Shown: positions 1 through 12,395 of the stretch, piece by piece | Layout: every line of letters begins with the position of its first letter | Numbering within the stretch: position 1 is the stretch's first letter | Origin: Vicinamibacteria bacterium | Lineage (GTDB): Bacteria; Acidobacteriota; Vicinamibacteria; Vicinamibacterales; UBA8438 | DNA length: 64,000 bases | Assembly: GCA_022820825.1 (NCBI GenBank) | Contig: JAJEEU010000042.1 | Coordinates: 62,001 to 126,000 of the forward strand | Direction: 5' to 3' | Made by a program: the position numbers and the translations under genes | The notes under the pieces: generated by a model | What the model was told of the DNA's origin: nothing | What the model saw: only the letters and a program-made list of their open reading frames with translations | Database searches by the model: none

Positions 1-1905
1 CCCCTCGTACAGCCCGCCTTCCATGAACGGCGGTGTCAGGTGCGTCACCGTGGCCGCGTACGAGCGGCGTTTGGCGATGATCCCTTCACCGACGTTGCTC
101 ATGACGTAGACGTAGACGTGCGGGAGCCCGCCGACGAGGGCGTCCGACCAGTCGAAGGCCGACAGGGCAATCTGTTTCCAGGGCGTGAACTCCAGGCTGC
201 CGTGGGTGCCGAAGTGCATGACGGTGTCGGCGTCGAAGGCATTCCGGGTCCAGAGGTAGGAGGCCACGTAGGGATGCGGCGGCGCCTTCCGCGCGCCGTG
301 CACCAACTGGAACGTGTCGTCGCCGACGCCCGGCAGCGGCTGCGGCAGGATCACGACATTGCCGAACCTGACGCGCGCCACGGCCAGCGCGGTCTCGTCG
401 CCGTCGCCGATCGTCATGTACTCGCCCGGGGCGGGTCCGTATTGCTCGACGACGGCGTCGCGCATGCCCGGCTCGAGATCCGTGTCCAACCATTCGGCGT
501 ACTCGCCGGCCGGCACGAGCGCCGGGCTCCCGGTGGCGACGTACTCCTCGAACGCGCCGCGCGCGTACGGTCCGAGCACCGGCCCCTTCCTCTGGATGAG
601 CTGCCAGAACTCGTCCTCCGTTTCCGGGAGTCCGTCCACCGTGTAGCCGGCGTCGCGCAACGCGCGGAGCAGGTTCAGCAGGCTCGGCGCGACCTCCAAG
701 CTGCCGGCGTTCATGGCGTTCTTGCCGGGGCCCTTGTAGTAGTAGATGGCCACGCGCTTGTCTCGGTTGGGCTTGGCCTTTAGCGCCAGCCAGCGCTCGA
801 CGAGGTCGCAGAAGGTCTCGAGGCGTTCCGGCAGCGCATCGAAGATCTCGTAGCCGTCCGCGTCGGTGAACTGCGCGGCCACCGCGTAGGGCGCCACGCC
901 GCCGTCGAGCTCGGGCAGGACGACGCTCATCGTGAGCATGGCCCCGGCCATGCCCTGCTGGTCGGTCTCCCAGTCGTCGTGGTTCTGGAACACCGACACG
1001 GGCGTCAGCATCGGGATGTTGCGCTCGCGCAGCCAGGCGATCGCCTCGTCGGCGCGCCCCAGGGTGAGCCGCCCGTGCGGCATCAGCACCACGAGATCGG
1101 GTGCAATCTGCTGCAGGAAGTCGAGGCGTTTCTCGACGGCGGCAACCGGGTAGACGTTCCACGCGCGGCCTTCGAGCGCGCTGATGAACGCGTCGACGTG
1201 ATCCCGGTTCGCGTTGAACGGGCCGGGCACGCTCGTGAGCAGGGCGATCTTCGGCGCGCCAGCCTTGGCCAGTCCCTGCGCCGCGTAGTAGGCGTCGAAC
1301 GCGTCGACGGTCTCGAACGTCAGGTCGTCATCCAGATGGAACAGCACGTCCATGGAACGCTCTACCGGGGGCTGCACCGGGTCCGAGCGGAGCGCCTTGC
1401 CGTCCAGCTCGACGCGCGAGAAGTTGAGCAGCCGGGCATAGTTGTCGGCTCCTCCGAACTCGAGGTAGCCGTTGGCCGCGTCGAGGTGCGGGCCGCGCAG
1501 GTTGGTGACATCGAGGGCGGGATTGGTGGCTCCCTGCACGAACAGGCGCGTGCCGCGGCGACCGGCCTCGCGCAGGTGCGCGAGCTGCGTCTCTTCGAGC
1601 TGCAGGCCGCGGCCGAAGACGTAGACGACCGGATAGCTCGCGGCGCGGTCCAGCGACTCCAGATTCAGCGACTCGACACGCACCGCCCCATGCGGTCGCG
1701 CGCGTTCGATGCGGGCCAGTTGGAAGCCGGGAAAGTTGACGAATGCGATCCGGGTCACGGCGAGGTGGCGCTGATAGGCGGCGAAGCCGCCCCACAGCGC
1801 CGCCGCCGCGAGCGCCGCCGCCGCGATCCGCTTGCGATGGAGCCAAAGCCTGGCGAGCTGCGCCCGCACTGCGCGCGCGCGTGTCGGAATCATCCTGGCA
1901 GTCAT
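1..1905 (-). CDS. CobN/HmuS-type chelatase-like protein, membrane-anchored (partial, runs off left edge)
   Basis: An open frame of 635 codons starts at ATG 1905, 6 nt after an AGAGGAGG ribosome site, and continues past base 1. Residues 20-45 hold an Arg/Lys-rich start and an Ala-rich membrane segment. The body matches the cobaltochelatase CobN / Mg-chelatase H superfamily: 'IYYYKGPGKNAMNAG' near residue 390 and the metal-site stretch 'MHFGTHGSLEFTPWKQ' near residue 575. Classical CobN inserts cobalt into a corrin in the cytoplasm. The membrane anchor and the gene for a TonB receptor 11 bp upstream instead recall HmuS-type proteins, which act on imported haem. No CobS/CobT partner is visible. 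The family is certain from the motifs; the substrate (haem, cobalamin or another tetrapyrrole) is inferred. Confidence 0.88.
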   Translation of the reverse strand, partial: MTARMIPTRARAVRAQLARLWLHRKRIAAAALAAAALWGGFAAYQRHLAVTRIAFVNFPGFQLARIERARPHGAVRVESLNLESLDRAASYPVVYVFGRGLQLEETQLAHLREAGRRGTRLFVQGATNPALDVTNLRGPHLDAANGYLEFGGADNYARLLNFSRVELDGKALRSDPVQPPVERSMDVLFHLDDDLTFETVDAFDAYYAAQGLAKAGAPKIALLTSVPGPFNANRDHVDAFISALEGRAWNVYPVAAVEKRLDFLQQIAPDLVVLMPHGRLTLGRADEAIAWLRERNIPMLTPVSVFQNHDDWETDQQGMAGAMLTMSVVLPELDGGVAPYAVAAQFTDADGYEIFDALPERLETFCDLVERWLALKAKPNRDKRVAIYYYKGPGKNAMNAGSLEVAPSLLNLLRALRDAGYTVDGLPETEDEFWQLIQRKGPVLGPYARGAFEEYVATGSPALVPAGEYAEWLDTDLEPGMRDAVVEQYGPAPGEYMTIGDGDETALAVARVRFGNVVILPQPLPGVGDDTFQLVHGARKAPPHPYVASYLWTRNAFDADTVMHFGTHGSLEFTPWKQIALSAFDWSDALVGGLPHVYVYVMSNVGEGIIAKRRSYAATVTHLTPPFMEGGLYEG

Positions 1906-1915
1906 CCGGCCTCCT

Positions 1916-4369
1916 CTAGAACGGCGTCACCGACAGGCTCACCGAGACGAGACGGCCCAGCGTGGGGCTCGCCGCGGTCTCCTGGTAGTCGGCGTTCATC
2001 AGGTTCAGCACGTGAACGCCCACGCGCAGGTCGTTGTTCGGGTGCAGGTAGAGCGCGAGGTCGGTGCGCGCGTACTCGTCGAGCAGCACCGGAACGCCCT
2101 GCGAGCTCTGCGTTCGCGTGCCGACCCAGCGCTGATCGATCGAACCGGTCAGGCGCCACGACCCGAGCCCGGCGCCCAACTGGAGTCCCGCGTTGACCTT
2201 GTGGCGGGGTACCAGCGCCAGCGCGTTGCCGGTCGCGCGATCCTCGCTGTCCGTGTACGAATAGTTGGTGTAGTAGCCCAGCCACGACGTCGCGTCCCCT
2301 TCCGCCACCAGCTCGACGCCGGTCGAGCGCGCCTCGGCGACGTTGATCCAGTCGAAGTGGTCGCGCTGCGGCGAGATCACGAGCTGTATGAGGTCGGTCA
2401 TGTCGTTGTAGAAGAAGTTCATCTCCGTGCGGAATGCGCGGCTGACCTCGTGCTGGATACCGGCGTCCAGCGACGTGATGTGCTCGGGCTCCAGATCCGG
2501 ATTCGGCAATCCGGGAATCGGGCCGTGGAAGACGACGTTGCCGAAGAGCTCGAACAGGCTCGGTGCGCGAAAGGCGCGGCCCGCGGACGTGCGGACGCGC
2601 GTGTTCGGCGCCAGGGCGTACAGCAGCGACACCTTCGGCGAGCCGACCGAACCGAACACCGAGTGGTGGTCGAAGCGCAGGCCGGGGACCAGCCGCAGGC
2701 CGTCGGCCAGCGCCCACTCGTCCTGCACGTACGCGGAGAAGATGTCGAACTGCTCCCGTTGCCCTCGCGACAGCGGGAAGACCGCGCCGATCGCCGGGTT
2801 GCGCGCCAGCGTGACGGTCGGGTTGGGCACGCCGCCCGCCGCCATGCCCGCCTGTATGCCCGCCGCTATCCGGGCCAGCGTCGCGTCCGAGCCGAGCAGG
2901 TTGGAACGGTCGGCGATGGTGCTGTCGCCGAACGCGCCGTGCTCGCGCGTATAGCTCGCCCCGAAGACGACGGTGTGATCGAGGTTCGGCGACCAGGTGA
3001 GCTGCGGCTCGACGAGCAGGCTGTAGAAGTCGGTGTCCTGTCCGGTGAGCGCAGCGAACGGAAACGCGCCGTGCGTCACCGACTCGATGACGGCCGGCCC
3101 GGGCGGATCGATGACAGTCGTCTGCCGAGTCGGCGCGAGGGTGAAGTTCTCCTGGAAGAGACGCTGGGTCGAGTAGCGGTAGCTCGTCCGGACCTGCGCC
3201 GACAGCGCGCCGGTCCCACCGTAGCGGACGATGCCGCCCAGGTTGACCGCGGTGTCCCGCTTGTGCTCCTCGACCGCGACCGGCAACCGGGACGACAGGT
3301 CGAGGCCCGTCTCGTAGCGGGAGATCCGTGGCAGCAGCGTTACGCGCCACGCATCGGAGACGGAGAAGTCCAGCCGCCCCATCATCCGCACGTCCTCGTA
3401 GCCGACGTTGCGCAACGGGACCTCCCGCGATTGCAGGCTGCCGTCGCCGGCGATGGCAGGCACAGTGCGGCTGTCGCGGTTGTAGACATTGTCGATCTTG
3501 CGGCGGTCCGCCGTGAGGGAATACGCGACGGGGCCGGATTTCCCGCGCACGGACGTTCCGAACTGGTGGTAGCCGGCCGAGCCGCCGCTGGCGAACAGGT
3601 CGGCGGCCGGCGGGCCTGCGCCGGGCCGGGTGATGGCGTTGATGACGCCGGAGAAGGCGTTGGCGCCATAGAGGCTCGAGAATGGCCCGCGGACCACCTC
3701 GGCGCGCTCCAGCGATTCCAGCGGCACGAGGCTCAACCCGGCCAGGCTGCCGTGGCCCAGATCGTTGGCCGGCAACCCGTCGAGCAGCAGCAGCGCCCGC
3801 TTGGTGCCGGGGACGCCGCGCACGACCATCGACGTGTTGGCGCGGGCTGCCATGCCGGAGGTTTCGGCGAGATCGATGGCCGGCGTCCGTCGCAGCAGGT
3901 CCTGCAGGTTGCGGGCCGACGATGCTGCGATGGTCTCGGTGTCGAGGATCGTTACGCTGGCCGGGACCTCGGAGACCGCGCGTTCGGTCTGCGTAGCGGT
4001 CACCACGACGCTCTCCTCGAACTGCAACACCGGGAGCCGCAGATCGAGAACCACGGGTCGGCCGGCCGTTACCGTCACCGATACCTGCAGATTCGCGAAC
4101 GCCTCCCGCGATACGGTCAGTCGGTACGCTCCCGCGGGTACGCCGTCGATGACGAACGCACCGTCCGAACCGGTCGTGGCCGACATCCCGGCGCCCTCCA
4201 GGACCACGACCGCAGCCGGCAGCGGCGCGCCACCGTCTTCGGCCACCACGACGCCCCGGATCGAACCGGTTTCCTGCAACCCGAAGGCCGGAGCCGGAGT
4301 CAGCGGTCCGGCGGTTATCAAGACACTCAAGGCAAGGGCCGCGATCGCGGCACGACGACGAATACGCAT
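1916..4369 (-). CDS. TonB-dependent outer-membrane receptor
   Basis: 817 residues. A signal peptide (to about residue 30) is followed by a carboxypeptidase-regulatory-like beta-sandwich (about 35-115), a plug domain ('SVTILDTETI', 'RGVPGTKRALLLLDGLPAND', 'VVRGPFSSLYGANAFSGVIN') and a 22-strand-type barrel ending in 'SVSLSVTPF' with the usual terminal Phe. The plug resembles BtuB/HmuR-like receptors. The start has GGAGGAG 9 nt upstream. The CobN-like gene begins 11 bp downstream and its ribosome site lies inside that gap, so the two are translationally linked. Import of a metal-tetrapyrrole is the most economical role; the sequence alone does not fix the ligand. Confidence 0.93.
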   Translation of the reverse strand: MRIRRRAAIAALALSVLITAGPLTPAPAFGLQETGSIRGVVVAEDGGAPLPAAVVVLEGAGMSATTGSDGAFVIDGVPAGAYRLTVSREAFANLQVSVTVTAGRPVVLDLRLPVLQFEESVVVTATQTERAVSEVPASVTILDTETIAASSARNLQDLLRRTPAIDLAETSGMAARANTSMVVRGVPGTKRALLLLDGLPANDLGHGSLAGLSLVPLESLERAEVVRGPFSSLYGANAFSGVINAITRPGAGPPAADLFASGGSAGYHQFGTSVRGKSGPVAYSLTADRRKIDNVYNRDSRTVPAIAGDGSLQSREVPLRNVGYEDVRMMGRLDFSVSDAWRVTLLPRISRYETGLDLSSRLPVAVEEHKRDTAVNLGGIVRYGGTGALSAQVRTSYRYSTQRLFQENFTLAPTRQTTVIDPPGPAVIESVTHGAFPFAALTGQDTDFYSLLVEPQLTWSPNLDHTVVFGASYTREHGAFGDSTIADRSNLLGSDATLARIAAGIQAGMAAGGVPNPTVTLARNPAIGAVFPLSRGQREQFDIFSAYVQDEWALADGLRLVPGLRFDHHSVFGSVGSPKVSLLYALAPNTRVRTSAGRAFRAPSLFELFGNVVFHGPIPGLPNPDLEPEHITSLDAGIQHEVSRAFRTEMNFFYNDMTDLIQLVISPQRDHFDWINVAEARSTGVELVAEGDATSWLGYYTNYSYTDSEDRATGNALALVPRHKVNAGLQLGAGLGSWRLTGSIDQRWVGTRTQSSQGVPVLLDEYARTDLALYLHPNNDLRVGVHVLNLMNADYQETAASPTLGRLVSVSLSVTPF

Positions 4370-4419
4370 GGAACATCTCCTCCCACGGCCACCGCTCTCT
4401 CGCGGGCGGGCCGCATGGC

Positions 4420-4434
4420 TCCAGTCGAACTGGA
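4420..4434. promoter_or_regulatory. 15-bp perfect inverted repeat in the TonB receptor leader
   Basis: TCCAGT-CGA-ACTGGA lies 51 bp upstream of the receptor start, in the gap between it and the small His-rich protein gene. It could be an operator or an mRNA hairpin. No known regulator consensus was recognised. Confidence 0.3.
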
Positions 4435-4504
4435 AGATTCGGACAGACGGCGTCCCGGTCGATCCAGCGGGAGCGGCCGAGACGCCGGCGGGATGGGAGA
4501 GATG

Positions 4505-4810
4505 TCAGGCGGGCGGTCCGCGCGTCGCCTGGGTGTGGCGCGCGGCGTCCCAGCCGCTCCGTTGGCGGTTTGAATCGGCGGCGTAGGCCGCCGGGTCCGG
4601 CGCCACCGGTGCCGGCGCCGCCGTCGTCGTTACCGAAAAGTGGTGCTGGAAGCAGCAGATTGCGCAGTGGTGGCCGTCTGCGCCCGCATGCCCGTCCTCA
4701 TCCTCATGGCCGTGCGAGAAGAAGCCGGCCGACAGCAGGGCGCACGTCAGCGCCAGGGCCAGACAGGCGAGCGGCCGGCTCGGCTTTCTCGTTCTCCACG
4801 GACGTGACAT
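4505..4810 (-). CDS. Small exported His/Cys-rich protein (DUF2946-like)
   Basis: 101 residues from the ATG at 4810; an ATG at 4819 is also possible. A basic N-terminus and a hydrophobic segment ('ACLALALTCALLSAGFF') form a signal peptide or anchor. An acidic/His stretch ('HGHEDEDGHAGADGHH') and 'CAICCFQHH' follow, which are typical of small metal-related proteins of the DUF2946 type. It lies 135 bp upstream of the TonB receptor on the same strand and resembles the next protein in both the Cys-His motif and the C-terminal 'RGPPA'. Metal binding or sensing at the envelope is an inference from the His/Cys content. Confidence 0.6.
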   Translation of the reverse strand: MSRPWRTRKPSRPLACLALALTCALLSAGFFSHGHEDEDGHAGADGHHCAICCFQHHFSVTTTAAPAPVAPDPAAYAADSNRQRSGWDAARHTQATRGPPA

Positions 4811-4948
4811 GGGTGTCATTCCACTTTGCGTGCTGAAATCTGCGCCGCCGGTGCGCGCGTGCTCGGACCTGCACGTGTACTGGTGCACAGCCCGACCGCG
4901 GGTGATTCGGGTGACTCGGAGTTGTCGCAGGGAAGTGCGACGAGACGG

Positions 4949-5233
4949 CTACGCGGGCGGACCGCGCGACGGGTGGATGCCGACGTACGCGGCCCGCTCA
5001 CCCTCCAGAGGTGCGGACGCGATAGTGTCGGCTACGGGATCCGGCGCCAGTGACGCGGGCGCGCCGGCCGCTTCGACCGCCGAGACATGTCGGAGATGAC
5101 ACGCATCGCAGTCGGCGTGACCTGCCGGCCGCGCATCGGCGTCGTGGTCGTGGAGGGCGCTCGCCGCCGGCGCGAGCGCCAGCACGGCCAGAAGCGTCAC
5201 CGCCGTCACCACGAACCTGCCCGCTGGCAGCAT
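4949..5233 (-). CDS. Small exported His/Cys-rich protein (paralogue of the next gene)
   Basis: 94 residues from the ATG at 5233. A signal peptide ending near 'APAASA' is followed by 'LHDHDADARPAGHADCDACHLRH', an Ala/Pro-rich middle and a C-terminal 'RGPPA'. The C-D-A-C-H cluster and the His/Asp stretch mirror the downstream small protein, so the pair look like an old tandem duplication. A TTG start at 5269 would add 12 residues, but that sequence also forms a plausible promoter. It is the first gene of the presumed metal/tetrapyrrole operon, 58 bp after malate synthase on the same strand. Confidence 0.55.
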   Translation of the reverse strand: MLPAGRFVVTAVTLLAVLALAPAASALHDHDADARPAGHADCDACHLRHVSAVEAAGAPASLAPDPVADTIASAPLEGERAAYVGIHPSRGPPA

Positions 5234-5239
5234 CACGCC

Positions 5240-5269
5240 GTTAAAGAAGCAAGAGAGAGCGGAAGTCAA
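5240..5269 (-). promoter_or_regulatory. Candidate sigma-70 promoter for the TonB/CobN operon
   Basis: On the minus strand TTGACT (5269-5264), an 18-bp spacer and TTTAAC (5245-5240) resemble -35 and -10 boxes. Transcription would start about at the A of the ATG at 5233, giving a leaderless message, which fits the lack of a ribosome site there. Confidence 0.4.
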
Positions 5270-7590: not shown

Positions 7591-8415
7591 ATGCGAAGAC
7601 TGATGACACTTGCGCTGGCGCTGCCGGCCGTCGTCGCGCTTGCAGGCGCGCTCGGCTGCGCGGCGCAGGATGACGACGCGGGCGGCGCGGCAGCGGCCCT
7701 GCCGCGCACCTACGACGGCATGCCGGACCTGAACGGCATCTGGCAGACCAACAACACGGCCTACTGGGACCTGGAGGACCATTCCGCCCGCGCGGGCGCC
7801 GCGGTGCCGCTGGGCGCCGTCGGCGCCGTGCCGGCCGGCAAGTCCGTGGTGGAGGGTGGGGAGATTCCCTACACGGAGGCGGCGCTCGCCCAGCGGCAGG
7901 AAAACCGCGAGCAGTGGCTGACCGCGGATCCGGAGATCAAGTGCTTTCTCCCGGGCGTGCCGCGCGTCATGTACATGCCGTTCCCGTTCCAGATCGTCCA
8001 GAGTCCCGAGTTCATCCTGATCGCTTCCGAGTACGTCGGCGCGACCCGCTCCGTCCACATGACGGACGTTCCGCCGCCGCCCATCGACACCTACATGGGG
8101 CATTCGGTCGGCCGCTGGGAAGGCGACACGCTCGTCATCGAGTCGAGCACCTTCACCGATCAGACGTGGCTCGACCGGGCCGGCAACTTCCACAGCCCGG
8201 CGCTGCGGGTCGTGGAGCGCATCACGCCGATCAGCCCCGACGCGCTGGAGTACGAGGCGACGCTCGAGGACGAGAACGTGTTCACCCGGCCGTGGACGAT
8301 CAGCATGCCGGTCTACCGCCGGCTGGAGCCCGATGTGGAGATTCTGGAGTTCAACTGCGTGGAGTTCGTCGAGGAGACAATGTGGGGACACCTGACGAAG
8401 CCGGAGACCGAATGA
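7591..8415 (+). CDS. Secreted 'DLNGIW' family protein, divergent member (paralogue A)
   Basis: 274 residues with an N-terminal hydrophobic signal ending near 'ALGC', possibly a lipoprotein. It belongs to the secreted family repeated eight times in this window: 'MPDLNGIW' near residue 45, 'KCFLPGVPRVMYMP' with the first conserved Cys, 'GRWEGDTLVIESSTF', and a second Cys near the C-terminus ('EFNCVEF'). The usual 'CHEGN' ending is lost, making it the most divergent copy. The function of the family is unknown. The start has TGGAG 8 nt upstream. Confidence 0.85.
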   Translation: MRRLMTLALALPAVVALAGALGCAAQDDDAGGAAAALPRTYDGMPDLNGIWQTNNTAYWDLEDHSARAGAAVPLGAVGAVPAGKSVVEGGEIPYTEAALAQRQENREQWLTADPEIKCFLPGVPRVMYMPFPFQIVQSPEFILIASEYVGATRSVHMTDVPPPPIDTYMGHSVGRWEGDTLVIESSTFTDQTWLDRAGNFHSPALRVVERITPISPDALEYEATLEDENVFTRPWTISMPVYRRLEPDVEILEFNCVEFVEETMWGHLTKPETE

Positions 8416-8576: not shown

Positions 8577-9785
8577 ATGCGAGTTCGATGGCCTGTAGTT
8601 GCGACCTTGGCGTTCGTCGCGTTGGCGGTCGGGTTCACGGTCCTGCCGGAGGTGGTGCAGGGGTCCGCGGCAAGCCAGGCCGAGGACTGGACCGTGCCGC
8701 GCACGCCCTGGGGAGATCCCGATCTGCAGGGGATCTGGACCAACGAGAACACGGGCACGCCGCGGCAGCGCCCGGCCCGTTTCGGTGAGCGCGAGTTCCT
8801 GAACGAGGACGAGGTGGCCGAGCTGGAGCGCCAGGCGCTGGAGCGCTACCAGGCGGCGCTGGCCGCCGACGACGATGCCGGGCCGCGCAGCGCCGCCGAC
8901 GTCGAGCGGACGCAGGGCACGGTGGAGGAAGGCATCTACGGCCAGGAGTACAACAACGTCTGGATGGAGCAGCCGCGCGAGCCGGGTCCGCTGCGCTGGA
9001 CGCGCACGTCGCTCATCGTGGAGCCGTCGCACGGCCAGGTTCCGCCGTTCACGGAGGAGCTGCTCGACCGGGTGGAAGCCCGGGAAGCCGCGCGTGCGCA
9101 TCGCGGCGAGGCGGATACCTGGGAGGACCGCAACCTCAACGAGCGCTGCATGCGGCCGCAGGCCGCGACCGGCCTGCAGGGGACGGTGCGCATCATCCAG
9201 GCGCCGGGCTGGGTGGCGATTCTGCCCGACGGCCTGCAGTACCCGCAGCTCATCTCGCTCGATGCGGGCGAGCACGTGTCCTCCAGGATCCGCGGCTGGT
9301 TCGGGAATGCGCGCGGCCGCTGGGAAGGCGACAGGCTCGTCATCGAGACGACCAACTTCAACGACAAGCAGGACGGCGGTCCCGTCCTGCCGTCGCGCCG
9401 GCCGCTCGCGTTCTTCCTGGGATCGGGCGAGACCCTGCGGCGCGTGGAGACCTACGAGCGCCTGGGCCCGGACCAGATGGCGTATGGAGTGACCACCGAC
9501 GACCCCAGCGTGTACGTGGAGCCGTACACGGTTCTCCGGCCCATGATTCTGGACAACGACTTCCTGATGCTGCAGTCGGGCTGCCACGAGGGCAACTACG
9601 GCATGCCGTTCATCCTGAGCGCAGCCCGCGCCGACGAGGACTACGCGATGCGCGCGGCGCAGGAGGCGGCCGAGCTGCGCAAGCCGGAGATTGCCGCGTT
9701 GCGGGAGCGCACGGAAGAGTGGCTGCGCACGGGCACGGTGCGCGCGCCGGACGCTCCCGTCGAGGAAGTCAATCCGGACCGCTGA
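8577..9785 (+). CDS. Secreted 'PWGDPDLQGIW' family protein (paralogue B)
   Basis: 402 residues, the longest of the eight relatives. It has a Sec signal (to about residue 28), then 'DWTVPRTPWGDPDLQGIW', 'SLIVEPSHGQVPP', 'NERCMRPQAA' with the first conserved Cys, 'NARGRWEGDRLVIETTNF' and 'QSGCHEGNYGM' with the second. An AAAGGAG site lies 7 nt before the ATG. The YciI-like gene starts 7 bp after the stop, so the two probably share a message. Function unknown; the two invariant Cys suggest a disulfide-stabilised extracytoplasmic fold. Confidence 0.88.
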   Translation: MRVRWPVVATLAFVALAVGFTVLPEVVQGSAASQAEDWTVPRTPWGDPDLQGIWTNENTGTPRQRPARFGEREFLNEDEVAELERQALERYQAALAADDDAGPRSAADVERTQGTVEEGIYGQEYNNVWMEQPREPGPLRWTRTSLIVEPSHGQVPPFTEELLDRVEAREAARAHRGEADTWEDRNLNERCMRPQAATGLQGTVRIIQAPGWVAILPDGLQYPQLISLDAGEHVSSRIRGWFGNARGRWEGDRLVIETTNFNDKQDGGPVLPSRRPLAFFLGSGETLRRVETYERLGPDQMAYGVTTDDPSVYVEPYTVLRPMILDNDFLMLQSGCHEGNYGMPFILSAARADEDYAMRAAQEAAELRKPEIAALRERTEEWLRTGTVRAPDAPVEEVNPDR

Positions 9786-11388: not shown

Positions 11389-11432
11389 CTGTAGCTGGTG
11401 CGGATCCAGGGAACGTGAAGGAGGGCGAGCCG

Positions 11433-12395
11433 GTGCTGCGACAGCAATTCCACGGTGCGGTCTGTATGGCGATTGCCGGCGCCTGTCTGCTGGCGCTGGC
11501 CGCGGGAGCCGCGGCGCAGGACGCAGGCTTCTCGCCTCCGAGAACTCCCTGGGGCGATCCCGATCTCCGAGGACACTGGCTCCCCGGTACGCAGGCGCCC
11601 ATGGAGAACCCGATCGGCGACGCGTGGAGGCTGACTGCGGAAGAGCTTGCGCGGTATCCCATCGCCCAGTTCTTCCCGGACCACCAGGACGCCCCGGGCA
11701 TCAAGAACACGGACCGGCCGATGGTCGTCGATCCGCCAAGCGGGCAGATTCCGCTCCAGGAATGGGCCATCGAGCGGCGCACCGAGATCATGGAGAACCA
11801 GGACCAGCTCGAGGTGCTCGACCCCCGAGTCAAGTGCCTGCCGGCCGCGGTGCCGCGCGCCAATCTGCCCGTGGCCTACAACTCGTATCAGATCCTCCAG
11901 GTGCCCGGCGCCGTGATCATCCTCTACGAGTGGAACCATCACTCGCGCTACATCCCGCTCGACGGCCGCCCGCACGTCGCCTCCGCCATCCGCCTGGGGA
12001 TGGGCGACTCGCGCGGCCGCTGGGAGGGGGACACCCTGGTCGTCGAGGTCTCCAACTTCACGGACAACACCTGGGTCGTCGGACACGGCGCGCCGCCCGA
12101 GGGCGCGCCCGCCACGTCGATCACCAGCGGACACGGCGTGTTCCACAGCCCCGATCTGCAGGTCGTCGAGCGCTACACGCTGGTCGACGAGAACACTATC
12201 CATTACGAGGCCACGATCACGGATCCGCAGGTGTTCACCCAACCGTGGACAATCTCGTACGATGCATTCAACCGCGCGGCCGACGATCACATCCTGTACG
12301 AATACGCCTGTCATGAAGGCAACGCGCGCAACCTGAAGCTGATGACCGGCACCGACAGCACGGCCTCGGTACGCCTGGAGCACGTCCCGCGGTAG
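11433..12395 (+). CDS. Secreted 'PWGDPDLRGHW' family protein (paralogue C)
   Basis: 320 residues from a GTG at 11433, chosen because AAGGAGGG lies about 8 nt upstream; a GTG at 11415 would add six residues. After a Sec signal ending 'GAAAQ' come 'PRTPWGDPDLRGHW', 'RVKCLPAAVPRANLP' with the first Cys, 'SRGRWEGDTLVVEVSNF', and 'YEYACHEGNARNL' with the second. It precedes a quinoprotein by 43 bp and paralogue D follows that quinoprotein, so the three form a likely operon. Function unknown. Confidence 0.87.
   Translation: MLRQQFHGAVCMAIAGACLLALAAGAAAQDAGFSPPRTPWGDPDLRGHWLPGTQAPMENPIGDAWRLTAEELARYPIAQFFPDHQDAPGIKNTDRPMVVDPPSGQIPLQEWAIERRTEIMENQDQLEVLDPRVKCLPAAVPRANLPVAYNSYQILQVPGAVIILYEWNHHSRYIPLDGRPHVASAIRLGMGDSRGRWEGDTLVVEVSNFTDNTWVVGHGAPPEGAPATSITSGHGVFHSPDLQVVERYTLVDENTIHYEATITDPQVFTQPWTISYDAFNRAADDHILYEYACHEGNARNLKLMTGTDSTASVRLEHVPR

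Follow-up and report, generated by a model that had tools for sequence, protein, structure and literature searches.

At one end of the window, the whole stretch of 64,000 nucleotides analysed here (C89:62001-126000, from a draft genome of 4.2 Mb), a gene for a CobN-like protein stands behind a TonB-dependent receptor gene and two short ORFs for exported proteins. Such a set of genes raises the question of which metal it handles, in which direction the chelatase-type enzyme works, and what the two small ORFs contribute. Among named genomes, its closest kin are metagenome genomes of Vicinamibacterales/Acidobacteria, with HmuS proteins that show 87-88% identity to that of the window.

Gene content of the operon

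The genes of the locus are as follows:

4949..5233, minus strand: smallA, exported, 94 aa from ATG 5233; CDAC, 44 aa, RGPPA-stop
4505..4819, minus strand: smallB, exported, 104 aa, DUF2946-like; CAIC, 44 aa, RGPPA-stop
1916..4369, minus strand: TonB-dependent receptor, 817 aa, with CarboxypepD_reg, Plug and barrel
1..1905, minus strand: HmuS-type chelatase of the R79/M299 type, N-terminal 635 aa, the rest outside the window
C89:58415-59098: HmuT-like protein, same operon, outside the window
C89:57748-58428: ExbB-like protein (PF01618), same operon, outside the window
C89:57447-57794: DUF2149 protein (PF09919, E 2e-29), same operon, outside the window

All four genes within the window lie on one strand, as an earlier note on this DNA had described; this is the minus strand, and they run leftwards from 5233 in the order smallA, smallB, TonB receptor and CobN-like gene, the last of which exits the window at base 1. 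The receptor and CobN-like genes are indeed nearly adjacent (stop at 1916, start at 1905), with a gap of 10 bp rather than the 11 bp first given. Beyond base 1, the same contig continues with a 227-aa membrane protein, followed by a MotA/TolQ/ExbB protein and a DUF2149 protein, the two companions that the note had expected to be found there. By their place, these three proteins correspond to HmuT, HmuU and HmuV; of the hmuYRSTUV set, R, S, T-like, U and V are present, and HmuY was not recognised next to the operon.

The receptor sequence scores alike against CirA, FepA and BtuB, and its ligand is not identifiable by this route. It contains FRAP and NPDL boxes with a His between them, an arrangement that is frequent in haem receptors; these boxes fail to separate the HmuS types described below.

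Elsewhere, the contig is crowded with paralogous exported proteins of 270-400 aa that carry a 'GDPDLQGxW'-type motif (window 7591-8415, 8577-9785 and 11415-12395; L002 5235-6176 and 10452-11432).

A chelatase of HmuS type with replaced haem-site residues

The CobN-like ORF is complete in the assembly (1597 aa; C89:59112-63905, equivalent to L002:13113-17906) and encodes the only protein with a PF02514 domain found in the genome. Both the N-terminal membrane segment and the F-G-T-H-G site noticed earlier are present, and a second hydrophobic segment lies at the C-terminal end, so that the protein has one at each end, along with HFGTHG and LSLDHVYEFMGG; the HFG(T/A)HG and LSLDHxxEFMGG motifs both occur in it. 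Its PDB matches score 1257 bits for HmuS, 371 for ChlH and 334 for CobN. In a 65-protein tree, computed by a quick method under a simple model, the chelatase falls within HmuS (100 SH-aLRT); ChlH and three CobN-like paralogues from its own family are placed elsewhere. The tree with CobN, ChlH and HmuS that the earlier note had called for thus puts the protein in HmuS, and we assign it firmly to that clade on sequence grounds.

Identity to Bacteroides thetaiotaomicron HmuS is 45% along the whole length. The residues kept include His538, His1209, Glu1212, Asp1208 and Glu577 of the catalytic cleft and the HGR motif (His-254) of the neck, whereas Met79 is replaced by Arg, Gln299 by Met, Ser1014 by Pro, Ser1067 by Ala and Gln1198 by Glu. 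In HmuS, Met79 in the head is an axial haem ligand, Gln299 is strictly conserved at the head/neck haem site, and Ser1014, Ser1067 and Gln1198 are the predicted propionate contacts (PMC12583661). The Arg79/Met299 pair is common to Vicinamibacteria, Cytophagales, Chitinophaga-like and proteobacterial sequences, and the Met79/Gln299 pair is that of gut and other Bacteroidales; we refer to these as R-type and haem-type, names coined here. Replacement of both Met79 and Gln299 holds throughout the R-type except in a few sequences. The domain IV insertion of the chelatase (about residues 800-1020) contains about 1% Met as judged by eye and is not Met-rich; it is present in L002:13113-17906 and absent from a tandem paralogue of relatives (L044:9671-13744).

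Given that the haem-site residues of proven HmuS are replaced, we would not file the chelatase as a haem de-chelatase, and haem, which the earlier note took as the default substrate, is probably not a safe assumption. The broader proposal of that note, an import-and-(de)chelation system in the envelope, is supported as the best reading, because the enzyme is HmuS-type, predicted to be membrane-anchored, and encoded beside a TonB receptor and ExbB/DUF2149 partners.

Several variations on this arrangement were seen in other genomes. In a complete chromosome (G405, L045 2386-8760), one copy of a tandem HmuS pair is divided between two ORFs and stands without a receptor gene; the second operon copy looks intact. 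Four members of the family (L172 at 624-4568, L173, L174 and L175) carry a second CobN-like paralogue, 34-36% identical, and at least those of L172 and L175 look exported, with a signal-peptide-like start. The operon of the window genome also lacks a Kelch/PQQ propeller gene that relatives have between HmuS and the T-like gene (L041 13619-15910 and homologues).

Two small ORFs with the layout of arrest peptides

The start of smallA is most likely ATG 5233 (or GTG 5236). TTG 5269, where the earlier note began the ORF, is probably too early, since it opens a conserved promoter-like TTGACT and a start codon lies just downstream. For smallB, the most likely start is 4819.

The two ORFs are built alike, with a signal-peptide-like start (judged by eye), a His/Asp stretch, a CxxC motif, exactly 44 residues and a terminal RGPPA-stop. 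The His/Asp stretches and CxxC motifs reported before are therefore found in both proteins, with the CxxC-H variant confined to smallA. CxxC and TRGPPA are invariant among 12 smallB homologues, as are DCDACH and RGPPA among 7 smallA homologues, and in both sets the linker is variable; overall protein constraint is weak. The CxxC-44-RGPPA pattern matches two of the 283 short ORFs of the window, with 0.0 expected from shuffles, and at 67 HmuS loci of other organisms it occurs nine times on the HmuS strand and never on the other (0.05 expected). The features that mark an arrest-peptide ORF of the CruR/CutF class (a signal peptide, a CxxC motif, a spacing of 45 +/- 2, and R(A/G)PP at most a few residues from the end) are present in both smallA and smallB. 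A profile search with DUF2946 (PF11162) gave 20.8 bits for smallB (E 7e-4), below the curated cut-off of 23.7, and no match for smallA. Haem c attachment through the CxxCH of smallA was considered and rejected: the residue following CxxC is H, C, Q or D across ORF types, so that no haem c constraint is apparent.

Among arrest sequences, RGPP and RAPP support arrest most readily and RGPP does so most stably; RGPP is also the most avoided tetrapeptide (PMC12992588). On account of this stability, the fixed CxxC-44-RGPPA layout, the variable linker and the resemblance to the layout of CruR, we take the strong position that smallA and smallB are very probably arrest peptides of the CruR/CutF class, acting as nascent-chain metal sensors. 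Metal would likely be bound by the nascent chain, and the proteins themselves are expected to be unstructured. The earlier suggestion that they bind the released metal is not supported, as a fixed-length CxxC-44-RGPPA element around a freely varying linker is the layout of an arrest-peptide sensor.

Relatives have the arrest-type layout in four sequence flavours, each heading a different gene: the smallA type precedes an SMP-30-like propeller gene, the smallB type precedes receptor-HmuS, and the other two precede a ZnuD-like receptor and an ABC-2 transporter, respectively. The SMP-30-like gene is missing from the window genome, and the smallA-smallB tandem is hence most simply read as a remnant left after its loss. 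What the earlier note regarded as a new pairing of small proteins would then have arisen locally, through the loss of a gene. A genome-wide scan for RxPPA-stop, which requires an Ala before the stop and so passes over other endings, returned a single additional genuine case, immediately upstream of a ZnuD-like receptor gene (contig C69). In the neighbourhood of this receptor are a His-rich protein and, as named by eye, a CDF-like protein and a Czc-like efflux set; the best PDB match of a homologue of the receptor is ZnuD (1e-34).

Arrest-type ORFs also precede HmuS at loci of a Hydrogenedentota member, Kuenenia and a planctomycete (L077, L079 and L087), with prepilin-like genes nearby and no receptor recognised.

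Putative promoter and leader elements

Three elements flank the small ORFs:

5240..5269, minus strand: promoter-like TTGACT-18-TTTAAC, directly before the smallA start, near-leaderless
4494..4505, minus strand: 5' arm ACATCTCTCCCA, which begins at the last base of the smallB stop codon and can pair with the receptor Shine-Dalgarno region
4373..4386, minus strand: 3' arm GTGGGAGGAGATGT, which contains the Shine-Dalgarno sequence of the receptor gene

When the upstream regions were compared by eye, TTGAC was found at the same place in six of six smallA homologues, within a TTGAC...TTTAAC/AATAG block that is closely followed by the start codon. No sigma-70 site was detected there in a scan with the consensus. 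With a by-eye comparison of six regions and a scan of that outcome, the evidence for a smallA promoter is weak.

In the leader between smallB and the receptor gene, the 5' arm outperforms all 74 other sequence windows as a pairing partner, and an anti-Shine-Dalgarno segment occurs at the same place in all nine leader homologues. The 5' arm ranks first among all windows in just two of these nine, ours included, and a swap test for covariation in the hairpin was not significant (p = 0.11). A hairpin switch ahead of the receptor, similar to those of CutF and SecM, is thus plausible. The smallA leader shows no pairing of such kind. A GTCGCA...TGCGAC hairpin closely follows the smallA stop in those homologues that were inspected (window 4820-4948).

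Marks of a zinc regulon at R-type loci

Zur-like boxes near the HmuS or receptor start occur at 10 of 35 R-type loci (in the proteobacterial set) as opposed to none of 25 non-R loci, mostly at a distance of at most about 90 bp; in several proteobacterial loci the box reads ATGTTATAACATCACAT and lies about 40 bp before HmuS. A COG0523 GTPase gene is present at 9 of 35 R-type and 0 of 25 non-R loci. Counting any mark (box, COG0523 or arrest-type ORF) gives 30 of 35 against 1 of 25 (Fisher 9e-11, kinship uncorrected), a count that includes the arrest ORF itself, which is unspecific to zinc. The association is phylogenetically clustered, with only two independent contrasts on the tree. At one Bacteroidota locus, a single gene run comprises an arrest ORF, an ABC-2 transporter, MerC, COG0523, a receptor, an HmuY-domain protein, HmuS and T/U/V-like genes.

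A scan with the proteobacterial consensus found no Zur-like box at close relatives of the window operon or at the HmuS start of the window, and no COG0523 gene lies beside the window operon or in the loci of its family. For this operon, zinc is therefore inferred from kin and from the sister ORF linked to ZnuD. On these sequence-based grounds we favour zinc over haem iron and consider it the probable metal. R-type loci were sampled in one class and one family of other bacteria and found in 1 of 369 and 2 of 396 genomes (counting that of the query), too sparse a yield to be informative; a plasmid search returned three records, all from Bacteroidota.

As a tentative generalisation, R-type HmuS could form a widespread class of its own, made up of zinc de-chelatases (or zinc-linked chelatases) that release zinc from a zinc macrocycle after its import, with zinc-sensing arrest peptides switching the operon where a Zur-like box is not found.

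Proposed working and alternatives

Taken together, we think the locus is, with somewhat better than even chances, a zinc-linked operon for TonB-dependent import and de-chelation, switched by two arrest peptides of the CruR/CutF class. Each small ORF would give rise to a short exported chain. With its CxxC/His site metal-free (44 residues back, just outside the exit tunnel), the ribosome would stall at RGPP, and a ribosome stalled at the smallB stop would cover the 5' arm, leaving the Shine-Dalgarno sequence unburied by the hairpin and allowing the receptor and chelatase to be made. Binding of metal would relieve the stall and shut the operon. The receptor would import a metal chelate, from which the HmuS-type enzyme would strip the metal in the periplasm, and the HmuT/U/V-like proteins would be the energising partners of the system.

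The same arrest-peptide operon could instead serve copper, with CruR-like sensors shutting off a copper-chelate receptor and the chelatase removing copper. CruR and CutF, the best-studied members of the small-ORF class, do respond to copper, CxxC motifs are known to bind this metal, and in Bordetella a TonB receptor gene is preceded by one for a DUF2946-family protein (PMC9426467, PMC9973294). We nevertheless judge copper unlikely: Zur-like boxes and COG0523 genes accompany R-type HmuS loci, the sister uORF precedes a ZnuD-like receptor, and no gene specific to copper was identified next to these loci.

Ordinary haem-iron uptake, in which HmuS of an HmuRSTUV set strips iron from haem and the small proteins are regulators of some kind, would account for the full-length 45% identity to B. 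thetaiotaomicron HmuS, the retained His538, His1209, Glu1212 and HGR, the HmuT/U/V-like genes, the HmuY-domain gene in one R-type operon and the FRAP-His-NPDL arrangement of the receptor. The replacement of Met79, Gln299, Ser1014, Ser1067 and Gln1198, together with the absence of any Zur-like box or COG0523 gene at the 25 non-R loci, makes it an improbable description of this operon.

The small proteins might also be mature periplasmic proteins that bind or store released metal; they do have signal peptides, His/Asp stretches and CxxC, and metal binding as such is likely. Such a role is, however, quite improbable in view of the fixed spacing across a free linker, the invariant terminal RGPPA, the low overall constraint and the recurrence of the layout before unrelated genes (receptors, an ABC-2 transporter, an SMP-30-like gene); for CruR and CutF themselves, no protein was detected in cells (PMC9426467, PMC9973294). 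A CobN-like B12 enzyme behind a BtuB-like receptor, suggested by the PF02514 domain and by the rise in cobalt in a P. aeruginosa znuA mutant, where PA1922-1925 are induced, is very improbable: the tree, with HmuS set apart from the CobN-like and ChlH sequences at 100 SH-aLRT, excludes a cobalamin CobN, this is the sole PF02514 protein, the enzyme is extracytoplasmic, an Rfam search returned one tRNA and no cobalamin riboswitch, and neither cobS/cobT near the operon nor any B12 gene in the 20 kb stretch read was recognised.

Comparison with known systems

The zinc-linked operon favoured here most resembles, in its enzyme, the HmuS/hmuYRSTUV system of B. thetaiotaomicron (PMC12583661; PDB 9d26), with which it shares full-length homology at 45%, two membrane anchors, the cleft residues and the order R-S-T-U-V. 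It differs in that Met79/Gln299 and Ser1014/Ser1067 are replaced, the domain IV insertion is not Met-rich, the operon is headed by putative arrest-peptide ORFs, and an HmuY gene was not found.

In gene content, the operon is also similar to PA1922-1925 of P. aeruginosa, a Zur-regulated set with a TonB receptor, CobN-like and ExbD-like genes that is up 45-147-fold in zinc shortage and whose function is stated as open (PMC4542158, PMC8531726, PMC11761036); that system, unlike ours, is under Zur protein control with no upstream ORF reported. A likeness to the ZnuD and Caulobacter ZnuK-ZnuGHI zinc uptake systems (PMC4176598) is seen in relatives, where the HmuS operon adjoins ABC-2 genes as well as a gene for a ZnuD-like receptor, both headed by arrest-type ORFs of their own; the ZnuD-like receptor of the window genome is on another contig. 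Most of the chelatase superfamily is still functionally unassigned in the 2025 HmuS paper, and the role of the CobN-like gene in the zinc regulon of P. aeruginosa has been a puzzle since 2015 at the latest; the R79/M299 signature together with zinc-regulon marks may offer a testable answer for both. In the literature searched, no paper combines HmuS with "zinc uptake regulator", the CruR and CutF papers do not mention HmuS, and the main text of the RAPP/RGPP survey mentions neither zinc, CobN nor heme.

With respect to regulation, the closest likeness is to CruR-BfrG of B. pertussis, in which CXXC, 45 residues and RAPP make up a sensor that detects copper as a nascent chain and is encoded ahead of a TonB receptor (PMC9426467), and which shares with our locus a small exported upstream ORF, a Cys motif, a proline-rich end and a TonB receptor after it. 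CutF-CutO of R. capsulatus (PMC9973294) likewise has a small exported upstream ORF with a Cys motif and a proline-rich end, and in addition a leader hairpin able to bury the ribosome site. In contrast to both, the window has two tandem ORFs, the metal is probably zinc rather than copper, and an HmuS-type chelatase operon lies downstream. The arrest-peptide ORFs thus suggest nascent-chain metal sensing beyond copper and, if the proposal is true, they would be the first arrest peptides of the CruR/CutF class known to respond to zinc.
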